Positions 1,191 through 13,293 of a stretch of DNA of 64,000 bases are shown here, one piece after another; within the stretch, counting starts at the first letter, position 1; each line of letters begins with the position of its first letter. This stretch comes from Actinomycetota bacterium (GTDB taxonomy: Bacteria; Actinomycetota; Coriobacteriia; Anaerosomatales; Anaerosomataceae). A program made the translations under genes and the position numbers. The notes below the pieces were generated by a model. It searched no databases, was not told the origin of the DNA, and saw only the letters and a list, made by a program, of their open reading frames with translations. The stretch is from contig RCMX01000002.1 of assembly GCA_004348925.1 (NCBI GenBank), forward strand, positions 106,046 through 170,045, read 5' to 3'.

Positions 1191-1563
1191 CGGCGCCTCC
1201 TCTTGCATCATCGGGCAGGTAGTCCGAGTATTCCCGTTCAGGAATACGGCTGTCAGGAACGCTTGCACCGTTTCCTGGTACACTTCTGGGTGCTTCCATC
1301 CGGGTCTGTGGTTGCGGGCGCGCAAGCGTCTCAGTCCAAGGTAGATGCGGCCAAAAGGATCCACGTAAGCCGGTGGGCGACCATCGCGCGAGCATGGCGC
1401 GTCTTAGGGGTAAGTCGTACCGTCCGGTCCAACCATCCCGGTTGGCGGGCGAGAGGGCCGGTAGTGAGATAGCATCAAGCGGAAGCCCCGGTACGCGAGT
1501 GTGGGGCCAAAGACCAGGTCAGCCGGATGGAAGCACCGTTCGTACTACGACTGGAGGGATTCG
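1191..1563. promoter_or_regulatory. Divergent intergenic region (373 bp)
   Basis: Separates the minus-strand membrane protein from the plus-strand receptor gene. On the minus strand I see a plausible promoter, CTGACA (1256-1251), 18 bp, AATACT (1232-1227). No convincing plus-strand promoter, tRNA or known riboswitch signature was found, although the leader of about 370 bp before an amino-acid-type receptor is long enough to hide one. Confidence 0.35.
1228..1247. promoter_or_regulatory. Inverted repeat GTATTCC-N6-GGAATAC, possible operator
   Basis: Perfect 7-bp arms (1228-1234 and 1241-1247) lie in the spacer and -10 of the putative minus-strand promoter for the membrane protein ending at 777. 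The position would suit a repressor, but no cognate regulator is evident. Confidence 0.3.
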
Positions 1564-5595: not shown

Positions 5596-5685
5596 AGGAA
5601 TTCGCGTACTCACCCGCGGCGGGCCGCTTGTGGCGGCGCGTCGCGGGTATGTTCATCTGTGACCGGATCGAACAGGAGGCCCACG

Positions 5686-6219
5686 ATGAAGATGATCATC
5701 AAGGGACGGCACATGGAAGTCACGCCGGCCATCCGCAGTTATGCCGAGGAGAAGATCGGCCGTATCGCGAAGATCCTCAACAGCATGATCCTGAGCACGG
5801 AGGTCGAGCTCTTCGCCGAGAAGAACCCGTCGATCGAGAATGGACAGGTCGCCGAGGTCACCGTGTACACGAAGGGGCATGTGATCCGGGCGAAGGAAGC
5901 CGCCAGCGACATGTACGCCGCGATCGACCTTGTCTCAGACAAGCTCGAGCGTCAGGTCAAGAAGTTCAAGACGAAGATCGTCGACAAGCACCGGGCGCCT
6001 GTCGTGATGCCTCCGGTCGCCGAACCTGCTGCGGAAGCCGAACCGGCCATCGTCAAGACGAAAGTCGTCGAGGTCAAACCCATGTCGCAGGAAGAAGCGA
6101 TTCTGCAGCTTGAGCTGCTCGGGCATGACTTCTTCGTATTCTCGTCGGCGGAGACCGAGGAGATCAGCGTGTTGTATCGACGCAACGATGGAGACTACGG
6201 GCTCATCGAGCCGAGATAG
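5686..6219 (+). CDS. hpf: Ribosome hibernation promoting factor, long form
   Basis: 177 aa from ATG 5686 with perfect SD AGGAGG (5674-5679, 6-nt spacing). N-terminal about 100 residues (MKMIIKGRHMEVTPAIRSYA, then TVYTKGHVIRAKE) form the S30AE/RaiA fold that sits in the decoding centre. A charged alanine/proline linker leads to the C-terminal dimerisation domain (EEAILQLELLGHDFFVF... GDYGLIEP). The long form alone makes 100S ribosome dimers in stationary phase. Stands as a single gene between two transcription stops. Confidence 0.95.
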   Translation: MKMIIKGRHMEVTPAIRSYAEEKIGRIAKILNSMILSTEVELFAEKNPSIENGQVAEVTVYTKGHVIRAKEAASDMYAAIDLVSDKLERQVKKFKTKIVDKHRAPVVMPPVAEPAAEAEPAIVKTKVVEVKPMSQEEAILQLELLGHDFFVFSSAETEEISVLYRRNDGDYGLIEPR

Positions 6220-6418: not shown

Positions 6419-7078
6419 GTGGAGAACACGGTTTCGTCGGCGATCATCGCTGAGATAGAGGAAGCTCTGTCCCAGGTCGCCGAGATCAAAGCCGCGCGGG
6501 TTGTCGCATCTTCGGATGGGTTCATCGAGGAGATACACGTCCTCGCCCTCCCCACCAAATCCCCGAAACAGCTCGTTCGCGACATCGAGTCGACCATCAT
6601 GGCAGCGTTCGGCGTTGCCATCGATCACAAGATCATCTCGATCGCACAGTTGGGACCCGACGTGCTCTCCAAACCGGAGACCAAGGTGCATGCGCGAGCG
6701 CGGATTCATGCGATTAATGCCGAGGTCACCGGCGTTCAGGCCAACAGCACCGTCACGCTCGAGCTTGAAGGCGACATTTACGTGGGGACGGCCTCTGGTC
6801 CTGCGAGCCAGACGGGTCGTCAGAGGCTGGTCGCGCTCGCGACACTCAATGCTGTCGAGCAGTACCTCCACGGGAGCATGAGCTTTGCACTTGAGGATGT
6901 GGAAATCGTTCGTCTCGGCAGGGAATCGGTCGCAGTCTCCTGCATCGTGCTCGTTACCTCATTGGGCGAGCAGGCGTTCTCTGGTTCAGCACTGGTTCGG
7001 CAGAACGAGAAGGACTCAATCGTCAGGGCGACGCTTGATGCGATCAACCGACGGATGGGTTTCTTGACAACCCCATAG
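6419..7078 (+). CDS. Conserved-looking protein of unknown function, first gene of accessory locus
   Basis: 219 aa, GTG start with SD AGGGGGT (6407-6412). Soluble, with no signal peptide or membrane segment. The N-terminal half begins with an amphipathic helix (SAIIAEIEEALSQVAEIKAA) followed by alternating strands and helices (RVVASSDGFIEEIHVLALP, DIESTIMAAFGVAIDHKIISIAQL). The second half has another alpha/beta unit (ARARIHAINAEVTGVQANST, RLVALATLNAVEQYL). No catalytic motif is visible. The repeated small alpha-beta units are compatible with a ligand-binding or regulatory domain. It precedes the peptide ORF and two HD-domain genes on the same strand and has its own promoter, so it may belong to their pathway. 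Confidence 0.75.
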   Translation: MENTVSSAIIAEIEEALSQVAEIKAARVVASSDGFIEEIHVLALPTKSPKQLVRDIESTIMAAFGVAIDHKIISIAQLGPDVLSKPETKVHARARIHAINAEVTGVQANSTVTLELEGDIYVGTASGPASQTGRQRLVALATLNAVEQYLHGSMSFALEDVEIVRLGRESVAVSCIVLVTSLGEQAFSGSALVRQNEKDSIVRATLDAINRRMGFLTTP

Positions 7079-7116
7079 CATCCAAGTTTGGGCCAACGCC
7101 GTGAGAAACCGGTTTG

Positions 7117-7212
7117 AACACTGTCAGCGAATCACGTAGCGGAGCGGACAGCGTTCTTCCATTACTAGCGGGATGGGAGAAGACCCGAAATCACCGTAAA
7201 GGGGGTCTTCTC
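7117..7212 (+). promoter_or_regulatory. Structured leader RNA before the small peptide ORF
   Basis: Two hairpins can be drawn. The first pairs 7117-7125 with 7147-7155 (9 bp, one mismatch). The second pairs GAGAAGACCC (7177-7186) perfectly with GGGTCTTCTC (7203-7212) across a 16-nt loop. The second stem contains or abuts the only G-rich SD (7201-7205) for the ATG at 7216, so folding would hide the ribosome site. No known riboswitch signature is recognised. Confidence 0.5.
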
Positions 7213-7215
7213 AAC

Positions 7216-7290
7216 ATGAAGAGAATCATTTTCCTGCTTAGCTCTCTCGCCGCGCTCGTTCTGGGCGGCGGCGCCTGGTTCCGCGCATAG
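7216..7290 (+). CDS. 24-aa hydrophobic peptide (putative)
   Basis: ATG 7216 to TAG 7288-7290. Starts MKRIIFLLSSLAALVLG and ends GGGAWFRA: a basic N-terminus, one hydrophobic segment long enough to cross or enter a membrane, then a short tail, like a signal-peptide-only or pheromone-precursor peptide. A G-rich SD lies 10-14 nt upstream, inside a hairpin. It sits between the 6419 gene and an HD-GYP gene, in an otherwise empty gap of 285 bp. Function unknown; a signalling peptide, membrane regulator or leader peptide are all possible. Chance occurrence cannot be excluded for so short an ORF. Confidence 0.5.
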   Translation: MKRIIFLLSSLAALVLGGGAWFRA

Positions 7291-7363
7291 CAGTACGGAA
7301 TGGCATGACGCGGCGTTGGCCCACCTGCTCTTCACACACCTACTCACAATATCGAAGGTGCTC

Positions 7364-8623
7364 ATGCGACTCAGGTTCTACTACTCAGCGACCGTTCTCG
7401 CCGCGGTTCTTGCGTTCGCGTGGTGGGCACAGGCATCGCCAGTGCGAGACTGGACTTCAGTGCTTGTGCTGGCCGCCTTTGCTTTTCTCGCGGAGACGCT
7501 AGCCTTTCAGTTGCCCTTGTCGGGATCGGTTTCGTTAGGTTTCGCGCTCGGCTTTGCTGCGCTCCTATACGATGGACCAGTTGCAGCGTCGTTCGTTGCA
7601 CTTGTGGGCAGCGTTTCTGTCCAAGATATTCGAGACCACCGTCCGATCGACGTTCAGCTGTTCAACAGTGCACAGCTAGTCATTTCGATTCTGTCCGCCT
7701 CGTGGGTGTATCAAGCATTGGGTGGTCGTCCTCTTGCCTGGATAGCTGCGGGATCTCCCGGCTCAGGTGCGCTTGGCCTGGGCGCAGCGATGGTCGCTGC
7801 AACAGCGTTCGTTGTCGTCAACATAGGTCTTGTGGGGGAAGCCCTGGCGCTGCGCACGCGCTTGTCTCTAGCGAGCGTGTTGCGTGAACAGAGCTTCGGG
7901 TCGTACTGGATTAGCTTCGTGATGCTGGCTCTCCTGGGCTACGTTCTCGCGAGAGTCGTTCATTCCGCGGGATGGGTCGGGGCGGTGCTTCTTGCTGCAC
8001 CCTTCGTGATTGCCCGAAAGACGTTCCGAGTCTATCTTGAACTGTCAGCGGCGTATGCGGATACCATTCGCTCTTTGGTCCAAGCGCTTGAGGCGAAGGA
8101 CCCATACACGAGGGGCCATTCGGAGCGCGTTGCAGCGTACTCCAAAGCGATGGCGCTGCGACTTGGCTATTCCGATGCGTCGGCGGAACGAGTCGAAATC
8201 GCGGCATTGCTCCACGACGTTGGCAAGGTCGGCATTCCGGAATCAACCCTTAGCAAGGCCGGAGCACTCACGCCAGTGGAGTACGAGCAGATTCGCCAGC
8301 ATCCAACAAAGGGCGAAAGCGTGCTACTGGAGGTTGAATTTCTCGCGGACATTGCGCCGATTGTGGCAGCGCACCATGAGCGTATGGACGGAACTGGCTA
8401 CCCGTGCGGGACTGATGGCGCGGACATTCCAGTTGAAGCGCGAATCCTGGCCGTGGCTGACGCGTTCGATGCGATGACGTCTTCTCGACCATACCGATCG
8501 GCGCTGAAAGCTGACTCGGCCGTCATCGAACTTCGCTCAGTCGCCGGGAGTCAGCTGGATGAGAAGGCGGTCGACGCGCTTCTGAGTCATCTCGCAGAGA
8601 GCGGGGCGTTAGAGAGCGTATGA
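7364..8623 (+). CDS. Membrane-bound HD-GYP domain protein (probable cyclic-di-GMP phosphodiesterase)
   Basis: 419 aa from ATG 7364 with SD AAGGTG; the frame opens upstream at TTG 7316 but lacks a good SD. Residues about 1-225 are six or more hydrophobic helices forming a MASE-like sensor. Residues about 236-415 are an HD-GYP domain: H252 in RGHSERV, H284-D285 in LLHDVGKVG, HHERMDGTGYP with GYP at 345-347, and VADAFDAMTSSRPYR. All canonical metal ligands seem present, so it should hydrolyse cyclic-di-GMP. Its stop overlaps the next start (ATGA), so the two HD genes are translationally coupled. GC3 is visibly lower than in housekeeping neighbours, which suggests acquisition. Confidence 0.88.
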   Translation: MRLRFYYSATVLAAVLAFAWWAQASPVRDWTSVLVLAAFAFLAETLAFQLPLSGSVSLGFALGFAALLYDGPVAASFVALVGSVSVQDIRDHRPIDVQLFNSAQLVISILSASWVYQALGGRPLAWIAAGSPGSGALGLGAAMVAATAFVVVNIGLVGEALALRTRLSLASVLREQSFGSYWISFVMLALLGYVLARVVHSAGWVGAVLLAAPFVIARKTFRVYLELSAAYADTIRSLVQALEAKDPYTRGHSERVAAYSKAMALRLGYSDASAERVEIAALLHDVGKVGIPESTLSKAGALTPVEYEQIRQHPTKGESVLLEVEFLADIAPIVAAHHERMDGTGYPCGTDGADIPVEARILAVADAFDAMTSSRPYRSALKADSAVIELRSVAGSQLDEKAVDALLSHLAESGALESV

Positions 8624-9876
8624 CGCGAGAACCAGATACCGCCTACTCATCTCGAGATTCTCGCGGCCTGTGGTGGGGTGTCGCGGCTGTGTCCACTGCA
8701 GTGATCTCCCTGGGCACGGCGATAGTCGTTTCGCATGGTGGTTGGAATCTTCCGTTGGCACTTGAGGTGGGCTTAGCGGCCGCGGTGACAGCCGCACTGG
8801 GGCTTCGACTGCCGCGCGGAGATGTCGTCAGGGTTGACGCGCTAGCCGCGAGTGCGGCCCTTGCGCTACTTGCCCCGGCAGCAGGCATGATCACGCTATT
8901 CTTCGGATGTCTGACGGGAATGTATCTCTCACGCCGAATGACCCGCTCATCGCCGGTCTCGGTGCTTGTCGACTCAAGTCGTCACGTGACCGCACTCGGT
9001 CTCGCATACTTGGTGAAGTACTCTGCGGTAACCCTGAGTCTCACCGAGGTCGCCTTGGCGGGGCTAGCGATCGCGGTCTATGCGTGCGTAGAGTTGTCCT
9101 CGCTTGCGGCCCAGCAGGCCTTCACCTCTGCGACTGGCTACTCGGTGGTTGCGGGCAGTATGTTCCGATCAGTCTGGCAGATATACCTTGGACAGGCGTG
9201 TCTGGGCATCGCTCTGGCAGTCGTGTATCCCTCGATGGGCGCCTGGGCAATACCTGTCATGACGATTCTCGGGGCTATCCTGCTGAATGGTTTCGCGCTC
9301 TATCTGCGGGTGAAGATTGCGTACCAGGAGACCATCGCTGCGTTGGCCAAGGTGAGCGAGCTTCACTTGGCGAATCGCCGTGGTCATTCTGAGCGCGTCG
9401 CCAACATGGCGGTATCGGTGGGACGACGGCTGGCAATGACGCCGCACAGTCTCGAGGCGCTGAACTACGCGGCCCTACTTCACGAGATTGGCTCGCTAGG
9501 GCGCGACTTCGAGGACCCAGCAGCGCATGAAGACGTTGCGGGTTGGGCGGAGAAGGGCGCAGAGATTCTTCGAGCCGTACCGTTCCTGGAAGATGCCGCT
9601 GAGATGGTGAGTTGTCAGCACGAAGTGGTGGGGGCAAGTCGTGATGAGCGAGCACGGGTATCTCAGATCGGCGGCGCGATCATTCGTGCATGTTGCGTTG
9701 TTGAGGATGAGTTACGCGGCGCCAGTGAGTCCGGCGAGTTGTCCGACAGTCCACGACTCGTAGATCGGGTGAATTCCGCGGAAGGCCGGATTCCAGAAGA
9801 GATTCTTCGGGCGGTAGTCCTTGTTGCGGAACAAATGCGAGTGTATGAGACTCGGGCAGTGCCTACTAAACGCTAG
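8620..9876 (+). CDS. Membrane protein with degenerate HD domain (likely non-catalytic)
   Basis: 418 aa, ATG 8620 overlapping the preceding stop. Same plan as its neighbour: about 225 residues of membrane helices followed by an HD-like domain (RRGHSERVANMAVSVGRRL, then AALLHEIGSLG). The defining HD pair is changed to H288-E289, and no GYP motif or following DAFDAM segment is present (only CQHEVVGAS where HHE would be). It is probably a duplicated HD-GYP protein turned into a sensor or partner subunit of the 7364 protein. Metal or ligand binding may persist without turnover. Confidence 0.8.
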   Translation: MTREPDTAYSSRDSRGLWWGVAAVSTAVISLGTAIVVSHGGWNLPLALEVGLAAAVTAALGLRLPRGDVVRVDALAASAALALLAPAAGMITLFFGCLTGMYLSRRMTRSSPVSVLVDSSRHVTALGLAYLVKYSAVTLSLTEVALAGLAIAVYACVELSSLAAQQAFTSATGYSVVAGSMFRSVWQIYLGQACLGIALAVVYPSMGAWAIPVMTILGAILLNGFALYLRVKIAYQETIAALAKVSELHLANRRGHSERVANMAVSVGRRLAMTPHSLEALNYAALLHEIGSLGRDFEDPAAHEDVAGWAEKGAEILRAVPFLEDAAEMVSCQHEVVGASRDERARVSQIGGAIIRACCVVEDELRGASESGELSDSPRLVDRVNSAEGRIPEEILRAVVLVAEQMRVYETRAVPTKR

Positions 9877-9981: not shown

Positions 9982-12900
9982 TTGGGGGAGGACATGGGAG
10001 AGACAAGGTCTGACGGCGTCCCCGATTGCGGATACGCCGTGATGAGACGACGACTAATTGAAGCCTTTCAGCGTACAGCTCCGGAGGTCACTGTCGTGGT
10101 CGCTCCCGGCGGCTACGGGAAGACTGTATTCGGCGCGCAGGTTGTACGCACAGTGGGAGAGTCGTTCTTGTGGATTTCCATGAGCGGGTGCTCGCCAACC
10201 GCGGGTGACTTTCCGTCTGCGGTTGCGGCGAGGCTACGACATGGAGTCACGGACAACAGTGAGCCTGGAGCGACGTCCCGGTATTCGACTTCGGGCTCTG
10301 GATGGGAGCGCCTGCGAGATGAGCTCGGGGCTCGTTCTGACTTACCCCTACTGGTAGTTCTCGATGGGTTGGACGTGCTCGATTCGGTCGCATCGCTTAA
10401 GCGACTGCGAGACTTGCTTAGGGACATGGGGGTGGCGAGTCCCAAGGTAGTGTGCACGTGCCGCACGATTTGCGAGCGACCTGGCGCCTCAGCTCACGAT
10501 ACGAGTTGCTGGACCGTCACGCGCAATGAGTTGGAGTTCACGGTCGAACAGACCAGGGACCTTGCGACACATGTCCTGCAAAGGGAGGTTGCTACCTCAG
10601 ATGCTGAGGCGCTTGCCCTGTCATCTGGGGGGCAACCAGCGCTGTTGGTCCTGCTGCTTCGCCATGCAATGTGTCATGACACCTCCATCTCGGCTGCGCT
10701 CAGTCGCGCTCCCAGAGATGTGGGCGACTATCTCCGATCAGAGTTCATGGCTCCCCGTGGGGCGGAAGCTAGACGCACACTTGGTGCGGCTGCCTTGCTC
10801 GGAAGCGGGTCGATTGGCGATCTGGTAAGAGTGACGGGGCTCAGCTCCGCAGACGTTTTGTCGTTGGCAACCGCTGTCCCACTGCTTCGACTCAAGAGCG
10901 ATGCCGTTGGTGTGCGGACTTTCGAGATACACGAGCTGGCGTCTGAGGTTTTTGGCGCCGCGCTGCTCGCGCGCGCATCCGATGTGGACTGCTCAACGAT
11001 CGACTCGATTATCAGGGAGCTTGAGGGGCGCGGAGAGTACCACAGACTATTCGGCATTCTCGTGCGAATGGAGGACACCGAGTACTTGGTCTCGCACGTG
11101 GAGCGTCTTGGAGGCCGGCTTCTTGAGGAGGCCTGCTTTGACTTGCTCGAGTCCTTACTTGTTCAGATTCCGGTCTGTGTTCAAGCTGGTAGTGTTCGCC
11201 TACTGCTGCTTGGGGCTATGCTACTGCGGCTGAAGGGGCGAGTTCCCGAAGCTCTCGAGCGCGCAGCCTCAGCACGGAGGTTGGCGATCGCGAGCAGTGA
11301 CGCGGTGCTGGAGCGAGACTGCCTAATCATTGAGGCTCGACTACGAATCGATGCCTGCCAGTTCCAATTCCTGGTTGAACCTCTTACGCGGGTGTTCGAG
11401 AGCGCTGTGACGACCGGAGACTATGACACCGCGGCCTTGCTCAGCGCCTACCTGGCGACCTCTCACGCTCAGCTCGGAGATGTCGTTACCGGCCGAGAAT
11501 ATGTTGAGCAATACAAGGCGCTCTATCAGCGCAACGGCGTCCGGGCCGCGACCCGAGCGCAATCGATTTCGATGATCCTTCTCGTCCTGGGCATCATCTG
11601 TGGTGATGTTGCTTCGGCTGCGGCGGTGCTGAAGGATGTCCGAGGTGACTCCGGCCAGCCGCTGGAGTTCAGGCTGCTGTGCGAGGGGAATCTGGCGGCC
11701 CTCCTTATGGAGATGGGGCGCATCCGCGACTCACTGCAGATTTCGCGTGCGGCACAGAGTCAAGCTCAGCGGAGGGGGTTTGCCTATCTAATTGACAGCT
11801 TCAGGGGTACGGATGCGGCGGCCTGTGCGGGTTTTGGCGAAGTCGCGGAGGCAGAGGCTCTCATGGCGTCTGCGATAGAACACCCTATCTGCCCTGAAGA
11901 CGCGTCAAATATTGCGGGCAATCGGATGTATCGATCGACCATTCGGCGTGCATCTGGCCTGCTCGACGAATCACTCGCGGACGCCGAACAAGCTCTGGTT
12001 GTCTTCTCGCGTGAAGCGGGAAGACTGCCCACAATGGCCTGTTTGGCGCGCTGTGAGGTGTCGGCTTCGATGTTGTCGCTTGGCGACGCACAGCGCGCTC
12101 ATGATCTAGCACTCGAATCGCGCTCCGAGGCCAATGCGTGGACGGCTGCGTACCACCTCCTCCGCGCCGATATGGTGTTGGCGGAGATCGAGCGGCAGCA
12201 GGGGGTAGTCGAGGATGCGGTCGCCCGAATCGCGCAGCACCGGGAGTACATTCTCACCGAAAGCGCCAACTGGCAGATCGCGATGTACGTTCGCGCGTTC
12301 CCGGGTCTGCTGGGCATATTCGCAAAGGCCGTGGGTGCAGAGGCGCTGCCGTCGCACCTGCTTCGGATGATCCTGCCCGACTACGCGCGACCGGCGCTCG
12401 AGGCATGCCACGACGACTTGCAGACCGCCGAGGTCGAGCGGCTGGCCGTGCGGCTTCTCGGCAAACGGGCTGCAGCCGTGTTCATGCGAGAGCGCGCCAG
12501 CGGTCCGAAGGCGGCGGTTCGCCTATTCGGCGGCATGCAAGTCGTGACGCCCACAGGCAGCGTCACCGATAAGGACTGGCGCAAGCGCAAAGCCCGCCTC
12601 CTCTTCGCGCTGCTCGTGCTCCGTCGTGGGCAAGATATGCCACGCGAGCAGATCTTCGAGCACTTCTGGCCCGAGATGGACGAGGAGCGCGCAAAGAGCA
12701 ACTTCTACGTCACGTGGAGCATCATGAAGCGCGCGCTGTCGGTAGGCACCGGTGGCAAGGGGCCCTGCCCATACGTCGAGCATGTCGGCGGGGTATGTCG
12801 CGTGGTCCCATCGTCGGTGTCATCTGACTTCGCAGAGTTCGAGGATGCCCTCATCGCGATGCGCAAGGCAGACCGCGCTGGCGATGCGTCACTTGCGTTG

Positions 12901-13293
12901 GCTGCGGCAGAGCGCATCGTCGAGCAATACCGGGGCGAGCTGCTGCCCGGGGAGCTCTACGACGAGTGGCTCGGTCCGATACGCGATCGGTGCCGACAGG
13001 ACTACGGCGATGCGATGCTACGTGCCTCGCAGCTCACGTATGAGGCGGGCGATCCCGAGAAGGCGCTCCACCTCGTTCGTGCCGGTCTGGGTCAGGATCC
13101 CTGGCGCGAGGATCTGTATCAGGCCGCGCTCCGCTACCTCATTCACACCGGGCAGCGAAGCGGCGCTATCGAGACATACGTCGCCTGCAAGAGTAAGCTT
13201 GCCGAGGATCTGGGCCTCGATCCTTCGACCGAGACACAGCGACTCTACGACCAGATCCTGGCCATGGAAGATCCACCTGGGGCGCCAGGGTAG
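9982..13293 (+). CDS. Giant STAND ATPase-TPR transcriptional regulator with C-terminal BTAD module
   Basis: 1103 aa. TTG 9982 has SD AGGAGGA (9966-9972) at 9 nt; ATG 9994 is an alternative. Residues 41-48 (APGGYGKT) are a MalT/AfsR-type P-loop, with VVLDGLDVLD as Walker B near 120, so it is a STAND signalling ATPase. About 350-800 are helical repeats of TPR/MalT type that in relatives bind inducers. About 844-935 (AVRLFGGMQVVTP... WRKRKARLLFALL... MPREQIFEHFWPE) is an OmpR-like winged helix, and about 940-1095 a bacterial transcriptional activation domain (LLPGELYDEWLGPIRDRC). In SARP proteins the DNA-binding part is N-terminal; here it is at the end. Codon use becomes high-GC3 near 12,100, inside the gene. 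Confidence 0.9.
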   Translation: MGEDMGETRSDGVPDCGYAVMRRRLIEAFQRTAPEVTVVVAPGGYGKTVFGAQVVRTVGESFLWISMSGCSPTAGDFPSAVAARLRHGVTDNSEPGATSRYSTSGSGWERLRDELGARSDLPLLVVLDGLDVLDSVASLKRLRDLLRDMGVASPKVVCTCRTICERPGASAHDTSCWTVTRNELEFTVEQTRDLATHVLQREVATSDAEALALSSGGQPALLVLLLRHAMCHDTSISAALSRAPRDVGDYLRSEFMAPRGAEARRTLGAAALLGSGSIGDLVRVTGLSSADVLSLATAVPLLRLKSDAVGVRTFEIHELASEVFGAALLARASDVDCSTIDSIIRELEGRGEYHRLFGILVRMEDTEYLVSHVERLGGRLLEEACFDLLESLLVQIPVCVQAGSVRLLLLGAMLLRLKGRVPEALERAASARRLAIASSDAVLERDCLIIEARLRIDACQFQFLVEPLTRVFESAVTTGDYDTAALLSAYLATSHAQLGDVVTGREYVEQYKALYQRNGVRAATRAQSISMILLVLGIICGDVASAAAVLKDVRGDSGQPLEFRLLCEGNLAALLMEMGRIRDSLQISRAAQSQAQRRGFAYLIDSFRGTDAAACAGFGEVAEAEALMASAIEHPICPEDASNIAGNRMYRSTIRRASGLLDESLADAEQALVVFSREAGRLPTMACLARCEVSASMLSLGDAQRAHDLALESRSEANAWTAAYHLLRADMVLAEIERQQGVVEDAVARIAQHREYILTESANWQIAMYVRAFPGLLGIFAKAVGAEALPSHLLRMILPDYARPALEACHDDLQTAEVERLAVRLLGKRAAAVFMRERASGPKAAVRLFGGMQVVTPTGSVTDKDWRKRKARLLFALLVLRRGQDMPREQIFEHFWPEMDEERAKSNFYVTWSIMKRALSVGTGGKGPCPYVEHVGGVCRVVPSSVSSDFAEFEDALIAMRKADRAGDASLALAAAERIVEQYRGELLPGELYDEWLGPIRDRCRQDYGDAMLRASQLTYEAGDPEKALHLVRAGLGQDPWREDLYQAALRYLIHTGQRSGAIETYVACKSKLAEDLGLDPSTETQRLYDQILAMEDPPGAPG

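Follow-up and report, generated by a model that had tools for sequence, protein, structure and literature searches.

What is the role of a 24-residue hydrophobic peptide that is encoded behind a folded leader and ahead of a gene for a membrane-bound HD-GYP protein? The question is raised by a micro-ORF in the window, i.e., the whole 64,000-nucleotide stretch of DNA analysed here (Table 1). Comparison with related loci indicates that this micro-ORF probably specifies the precursor of a short linear peptide pheromone, which would be made from a closed, structured RNA and sensed by the adjoining MASE9-type HD-GYP protein. The micro-gene in its folded RNA points to an undescribed bacterial cell-to-cell signalling system.

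Table 1. Features of the locus, in positions of the window.
Feature	Position	Strand	Remarks
UpA	6419..7078	+	219 aa; function unknown; conserved at the upstream end of the module
Whole RNA element	about 7089-7323	+	~235 nt; leader and micro-ORF inside closing helix P1
P1 5' strand, TGGGCCAACGCCG	7089..7101	+	partner 7311-7323
Stem A	7116-7125 with 7147-7156	+	9 pairs and an A7120.C7152 mismatch
Core motif, AGCGGAGCGG	7138..7147	+	
Alternative hairpin I'	7154-7162 with 7173-7181	+	TAGCGG 7166-7171 in the loop
Hairpin I	7159-7163/7172-7176	+	inner part of hairpin I'
Helix II, GAGAAGACCC with GGGTCTTCTC	7177-7186 with 7203-7212	+	perfect; covers part of ribosome site 7200-7205 (AGGGGG)
Micro-ORF, MKRIIFLLSSLAALVLGGGA followed by WFRA	7216..7290	+	encodes MKRIIFLLSSLAALVLGGGAWFRA, 24 aa
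Putative signal peptide, codons 1-20	7216-7275	+	Ala20 in 49/49
Hypervariable tail, codons 21-24	7276-7287	+	WFRA in the window
P1 3' strand, CGGCGTTGGCCCA	7311..7323	+	3' of the micro-ORF stop
HDGYP1	7364..8623	+	N-terminal MASE9-type membrane sensor and HD-GYP domain; proposed receptor
HDGYP1 sensor part	about 7364-8089	+	linker included
HDGYP2	8620..9876	+	second membrane HD-domain protein; HD_5 3.3e-07; conserved position
Large BTAD regulator (SARP/MalT-like)	9982..13293	+	BTAD 1.3e-20; weak MalT-like NCBIfam match

The micro-ORF and its enclosing RNA

DNA corresponding to positions 7080-7330 was matched in 49 of 61 related genomes, including the window's own, in which the peptide search returned a single copy. 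A covariance model of the leader (R1) recovered 54 of 69 genomes and 34 of 40 genera of the order; applied class-wide, it matched 54 of 396 genomes, all belonging to that same order of Coriobacteriia. Further, an exact-pattern scan of named genomes returned 43 contigs, most of which carry the label Coriobacteriia, Anaerosomatales or unclassified Actinobacteria. Where the neighbourhoods examined were long enough, the gene order was ABC transporter, HPF, UpA, RNA/peptide, HDGYP1, HDGYP2 and BTAD regulator; most genomes have a single locus, in a constant syntenic position. A mobile element with inverted ends was rejected because of this conserved synteny.

UpA matched neither Pfam (at E ≤ 5) nor NCBIfam, and Foldseek matched its AF2 model (pLDDT 83) weakly with dsRNA-binding domains and with the regulatory domain of LeuA. 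HDGYP2 carries no HD-GYP catalytic signature, and the BTAD regulator is the probable output of the module. At the end of UpA (window ~7065-7078), the sequence reads TTGACAAC..CATAG in most relatives with its wobble bases fixed, which suggests a signal at the DNA level; a possible -35 (TTGACA) was conserved there by eye, and no -10 to match it was found. An extra membrane protein of ~180 aa with an NGxMPV motif lies between HDGYP2 and the BTAD gene in many relatives (L150, L126) and is absent from the window. In several families (L139, L132, L131, L129, L134, L130 and L143), the start codon and ribosome site of HDGYP1 lie in a long hairpin, which was not seen in the window. A raiA RNA (RF03072, 160.6 bits) was located at window positions 1295-1531, and the hpf/raiA-type gene (5659-6219) lies a few kb downstream of it.

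The original prediction had ascribed to the peptide the profile of a signal or membrane peptide and had named frame-breaking changes among close relatives as part of what would refute it. The reading frame was intact in 49 of the 50 aligned loci (contig ends truncate 4 of these), and the 50th, L051, was a chance match. The signal-peptide profile was likewise borne out, as residues 1-20 follow the consensus MKR[I]..LL.SLAALVL.GGA with Ala20 present in all 49 distinct complete ORFs. Judged by a pN/pS of 0.08 in codons 2-20 vs. 0.91 in the tail (32 close pairs, which are not independent), codons 2-20 are under purifying selection. The tail itself comprises 4-6 residues and takes 42 different forms among the 49 loci; of the 36/49 tails with four residues, 35 have Arg or Lys at position 3, and most have Phe or Trp at position 2.

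With regard to the RNA, the 10-bp stem described over the ribosome site lies exactly where it had been claimed (helix II), ending 3 nt before ATG 7216, and the second, 9-bp stem upstream was found as stem A, with one mismatch added. The structured leader and the hidden ribosome site of the original prediction were retained, the site lying partly in helix II; the extent of the element was not, since helix P1 had been overlooked. In P1, GGGCCAACGCCG right behind the UpA stop pairs with CGGCGTTGGCCC right behind the micro-ORF stop and, as the two strands flank leader and ORF, a single helix would close an RNA of ~235 nt. The predicted folding energy of 7087-7325 was -104 kcal/mol vs. a shuffled mean of -82.8 (z -4.25; 0 of 200 shuffles as low).

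The other part of the refutation test proposed with the original prediction was a lack of covariation in the stems. In the alignments employed (A1/A2; 43 of the 50 aligned loci, leaving out the chance match and six that are truncated at contig ends; L031 duplicates L001), the RNA does covary, mostly in P1, and the prediction is thus not refuted by its own test. P1 was paired in 91.1% of cells, with both sides changed in 9 of 13 pairs and 46 double-change cells vs. 13.3 in shuffles. Its covariation score was 0.296 vs. 0.170 when shuffled (0/500) and at most 0.108 when the helix was slid; tested locus by locus, p<0.05 was reached in 33 of 43 sequences of the order, not in all. Stem A (96.0% of cells paired, both sides changed in 1 of 8 pairs) and helix II (95.7% paired) vary mostly on one side, via G-U, and, taken together with hairpin I, kept 96.3% of cells with few double changes.

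Hairpin I' was paired in 98.5% of cells (41 distinct sequences), with both sides changed in only 1 of 10 pairs. This hairpin and helix II are mutually exclusive, and hairpin I' also excludes part of stem A; the sequestered leader fold was predicted at -36.5 vs. -28.0 kcal/mol for the alternative, which is 8.5 kcal/mol less stable. Conserved, mutually exclusive pairing of this kind fits an RNA switch and, since transcription would complete hairpin I' ahead of the 3' strand of helix II, a co-transcriptional switch by the alternative hairpin is plausible; the lower stability of the alternative fold and its scant covariation count against it. The ligand- or temperature-driven switch that had been proposed from the leader is kept as just one part of the explanation. 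The proposal took in neither the hypervariable tail, nor its co-diversification with the sensor, nor the spread of the module past the order.

No match to the element was found in Rfam release 15, either at the gathering cut-off or at E ≤ 5, and 10 outside-order loci yielded nothing but a chance miRNA match (E 0.1). Assemblies often break inside the RNA (G002, G007, G045, G047, G052, G057, G059 and G066), as expected if a conserved RNA sits between variable alleles in mixed populations.

The tail co-diversifies with the sensor domain of HDGYP1

HDGYP1 matched Pfam HD_5 (9.2e-45) and contains both the HD and the HHExxDGxGYP motifs. Its N-terminal part is likened to the MASE9 sensor of HD-GYP proteins (PF20972) through matches in 17 of 27 homologues (best 7.5e-09), the window's own protein being unmatched at E ≤ 1. 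In the AF2 model of HDGYP1 (pLDDT 88.7), the N-terminal domain is similar in fold to ECF S components, e.g., to RibU (TMt 0.68, E 0.013). To our knowledge, no ligand has been assigned to MASE9, and the word itself occurred in no paper of the open-licence collection searched.

In the pairs compared, DNA identity falls exactly at codon 21. Between G000 and G004, it was 98% over the leader and codons 1-20 and then 39-60% through HDGYP1; the HPF, UpA and ABC ATPase proteins were 94-99% identical, the tails were WFRA vs. MYRV, and HDGYP1 reached only 48%. G003, which is farther from G000 upstream, has the same tail, WFRA, and an HDGYP1 that is 76% identical. A similar profile was observed for G005 and G015 (tails VWKY/IWKG), where DNA identity was 94-100% from UpA to codon 20, 40-61% in the sensor domain and 86-95% beyond, corresponding to 61% protein identity in the sensor vs. 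98% in the HD domain. Likewise, two contigs of G007 (tails VWKV/YFKL) share 45% of the sensor vs. 87% of the HD domain. When tails were equal or nearly so, sensor identity was at least that of the HD domain (80 vs. 71, 86 vs. 70, 75 vs. 72 and 76 vs. 65%), with the exception of the near-equal tails WFRL/WFRA of G012/G019 (57 vs. 65%).

These relationships were also quantified in the 30 loci with all four genes (the two contigs of G007 were left out, and G002 is represented by proteins from two contigs), by partial Mantel permutations whose r values are not fully corrected for shared ancestry. With UpA held constant, tail similarity followed HDGYP1 (partial r 0.416, 0/2000) and, to a lesser extent, HDGYP2 (0.277, 3/2000), and did not track BTAD (0.094, 361/2000); because of the latter result, the BTAD regulator was dropped as main candidate for the peptide receptor. 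Within HDGYP1, tail similarity followed the sensor given the HD domain (0.327, 0/2000) and did not follow the HD domain given the sensor (0.103, 289/2000). At the sequence level, then, the tail co-diversifies with the N-terminal membrane domain of HDGYP1. Identical tails also occur in distant genera whose receptors are only ~44-45% identical (WFRA in G000/G019, SFRW in G010/G035), an ordinary value, so the sensor is not fixed by the tail alone.

A second diversifying block, independent of the tail, comprises HDGYP2 and the N-terminal half of the BTAD regulator (L149/L150). Between G010 and G018, the sensor is kept (86%), with HDGYP2 down to 56% and BTAD to 45%.

Proposed signalling route, alternatives and known systems

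In the mechanism that we infer, a 20-residue signal peptide ending in GGA would precede a signal of 4-6 residues (WFRA in the window), and signal peptidase would release this tail outside the cell. The tail would then be bound and sensed by the MASE9-type, S-component-like membrane domain of HDGYP1, which would alter c-di-GMP breakdown by this protein, with HDGYP2 and the BTAD regulator acting downstream. In the P1-closed RNA, the ribosome site would be hidden by helix II and would become accessible when the alternative hairpin forms. As in peptide-pheromone precursors in general, a putative signal peptide is combined with a variable C-terminal signal that co-diversifies with the gene of the candidate receptor.

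The main rival to this reading is a membrane-bound micro-subunit, which would stay in the bilayer and regulate the neighbouring MASE9 protein in the same cell, so that tail and sensor would co-vary through protein contact. A single hydrophobic helix, the adjacency of the genes and the co-diversification fit such a subunit equally well. However, the Ala20 behind Gly-Gly that is invariant in 49/49 ORFs resembles a signal-peptidase site, conservation resides in the hydrophobic part and variation outside it, the modelled sensor is folded like an S component, with a ligand pocket, and the replacement of alleles between close species is reminiscent of pherotypes. On these grounds, we regard the subunit as unlikely.

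Alternatively, the micro-ORF might be an attenuation leader peptide, translation of or stalling on which would control the downstream HD-GYP gene in cis. Its position between the P1 strands and ahead of HDGYP1 agrees with this, as does unusually good folding around the receptor start in 9 of 34 loci (z<-2), about seven of which form a long hairpin around the start codon; the remaining 25, however, have no such fold there. Moreover, the C terminus, which would occupy the peptidyl-transferase centre, is the most variable part of the peptide, the opposite of the pattern in stalling peptides, and this makes a leader peptide highly improbable.

The pheromone reading was also compared with known peptide systems. 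In agr and comQXPA, as here, a hypervariable peptide end and the sensor domain of an adjoining membrane receptor diversify together between conserved flanks. There, however, the receptor is a histidine kinase rather than an HD-GYP c-di-GMP protein; here, no modifying or exporting protease gene was among the neighbours seen, and a linear 4-6-mer lies behind a plain signal peptide in a structured, closed mRNA. Neither an AgrB protease nor a histidine-kinase receptor was found among the Pfam-searched neighbours (HPF, UpA without a match, two HD proteins and BTAD). In RRNPPA systems, the precursor has a signal peptide and ends in a short linear signal, as the micro-ORF product would. Their receptors are cytoplasmic, whereas the co-varying partner here is a membrane domain; a cytoplasmic TPR receptor matched to the peptide was not found adjacently, as the adjacent gene encodes a membrane protein and BTAD gave the low value cited above. 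The RRNPPA group (PMC9765709) includes Rap-Phr and arbitrium.

Searches of open-licence full texts on HD-GYP proteins with peptide pheromones, Coriobacteriia quorum sensing, MASE9, pherotypes and structured RNAs turned up no account of the system, an absence that weighs little because only such texts were covered. None of the terms sought was present in the text on the order Anaerosomatales (PMC9686372). A review on c-di-GMP sensing (PMC8846402) lists MASE1 among domains of unknown purpose and does not contain the word "pheromone", and a 2016 review (PMC4748050) found that quorum sensing had not been reported for Coriobacteriia. Peptide quorum sensing is known as such; among the families tested here, none fits the class of receptor, the class of RNA or the precursor family. 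If the pheromone reading is true, a c-di-GMP phosphodiesterase would act as the direct receptor in a family of peptide quorum-sensing systems, the MASE9 sensor domain would gain a class of ligands, and a class of RNAs would be defined that enclose the ORF of their own pheromone.

The module outside the order

MASE9 was present in 81 of 246 genomes of the phylum, and a control search also gave matches in Thermotoga and Thermus. Elsewhere in the phylum, 70 MASE9 loci were collected, and 3 at contig edges were left out. A signal-peptide micro-ORF lay just upstream in 34 of the remaining 67, vs. 1/67 on the antisense strand, and it preceded 24 of 34 MASE9 genes with HD-GYP output and 10 of 33 without. 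By the criteria used, 33 of the 67 genes had no micro-ORF, including 10 of 34 even with HD-GYP output. As background, 31 of 170 long genes from the order's loci and the window had an upstream micro-ORF, and 29 of these 31 were HDGYP1. Outside the order, 21 of 42 distinct peptides have Arg/Lys-aromatic ends. Two tandem micro-ORF copies with identical peptides precede a single MASE9 gene in L168, L170, L176 and L184.

The other parts of the module recur as well. UpA-like ORFs were found at 37 of 105 outside-order loci, a count that includes duplicates, and AGCGRAGCG upstream of the micro-ORF at 19 of 37 outside-order loci. Behind this motif there is often a hairpin with a (T/G)AGCGR loop and then a helix over the ribosome site, unrelated in sequence; other groups have a helix of unrelated sequence at the place of helix II, e.g., one of 12 bp in L165. 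Upon shuffling of outside-order loci, p<0.05 was obtained for 8 of 14 hairpins and 3 of 14 helices. Leader and ORF were enclosed by a helix of 11-20 bp in 18/18 loci with motif and micro-ORF, which represent 14 distinct places. Further, a blind search with the RNA pattern matched 45 of 396 genomes of the phylum, the reversed control pattern also matching many GC-rich genomes. Among the 30 loci retrieved, 19 had such a signal-peptide micro-ORF 5-12 nt past the motif, followed by an HD-GYP gene in 15 of the 19; the remaining 11 look like chance.

This recurrence beside MASE9 genes in other lineages argues against a type I toxin-antitoxin reading, in which a small hydrophobic toxin would be encoded by an mRNA that is kept shut by pairing of its 5' and 3' parts and by concealment of its ribosome site, and silenced by an antisense RNA. 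The short hydrophobic peptide, the long-distance 5'-3' helix and the sequestered ribosome site are indeed shared with hok and aapA mRNAs, whose partner, however, is an antisense RNA, in contrast to the sensor gene and hypervariable C terminus found here. A locus that mostly occurs once per genome at a fixed syntenic place, with a tail that follows the adjoining receptor domain, also argues against a toxin, to which we give very little credence.

In Bacillota, plasmids of Natranaerobius thermophilus and Subdoligranulum variabile carry a UpA-like ORF, the leader motif, a micro-ORF and an HD-GYP gene; Pfam recognised MASE9 in the HD-GYP protein of the former and gave no match in the latter. Taking these loci together with those of the order, we lean slightly towards a broader reading, in which MASE9 would be a peptide-pheromone receptor domain across phyla. 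A common module of UpA, closed RNA with signal peptide and short signal (often ending in Lys/Arg-aromatic), and MASE9 HD-GYP protein in Actinomycetota and Bacillota (Natranaerobius, Subdoligranulum) would turn population density directly into c-di-GMP changes, and the RNA (AGCGRAGCGG / TAGCGG core) would represent a new regulatory RNA class.

In Nonomuraea gerenzanensis, a micro-ORF lies ahead of a weakly MASE9-like HD-GYP gene. In Natranaerobius, a DUF5317 gene follows the HD-GYP gene; at L236, what is probably the N-terminal part of the Natranaerobius MASE9 gene has its own annotation as a small hypothetical protein, and the micro-ORF is left unannotated.
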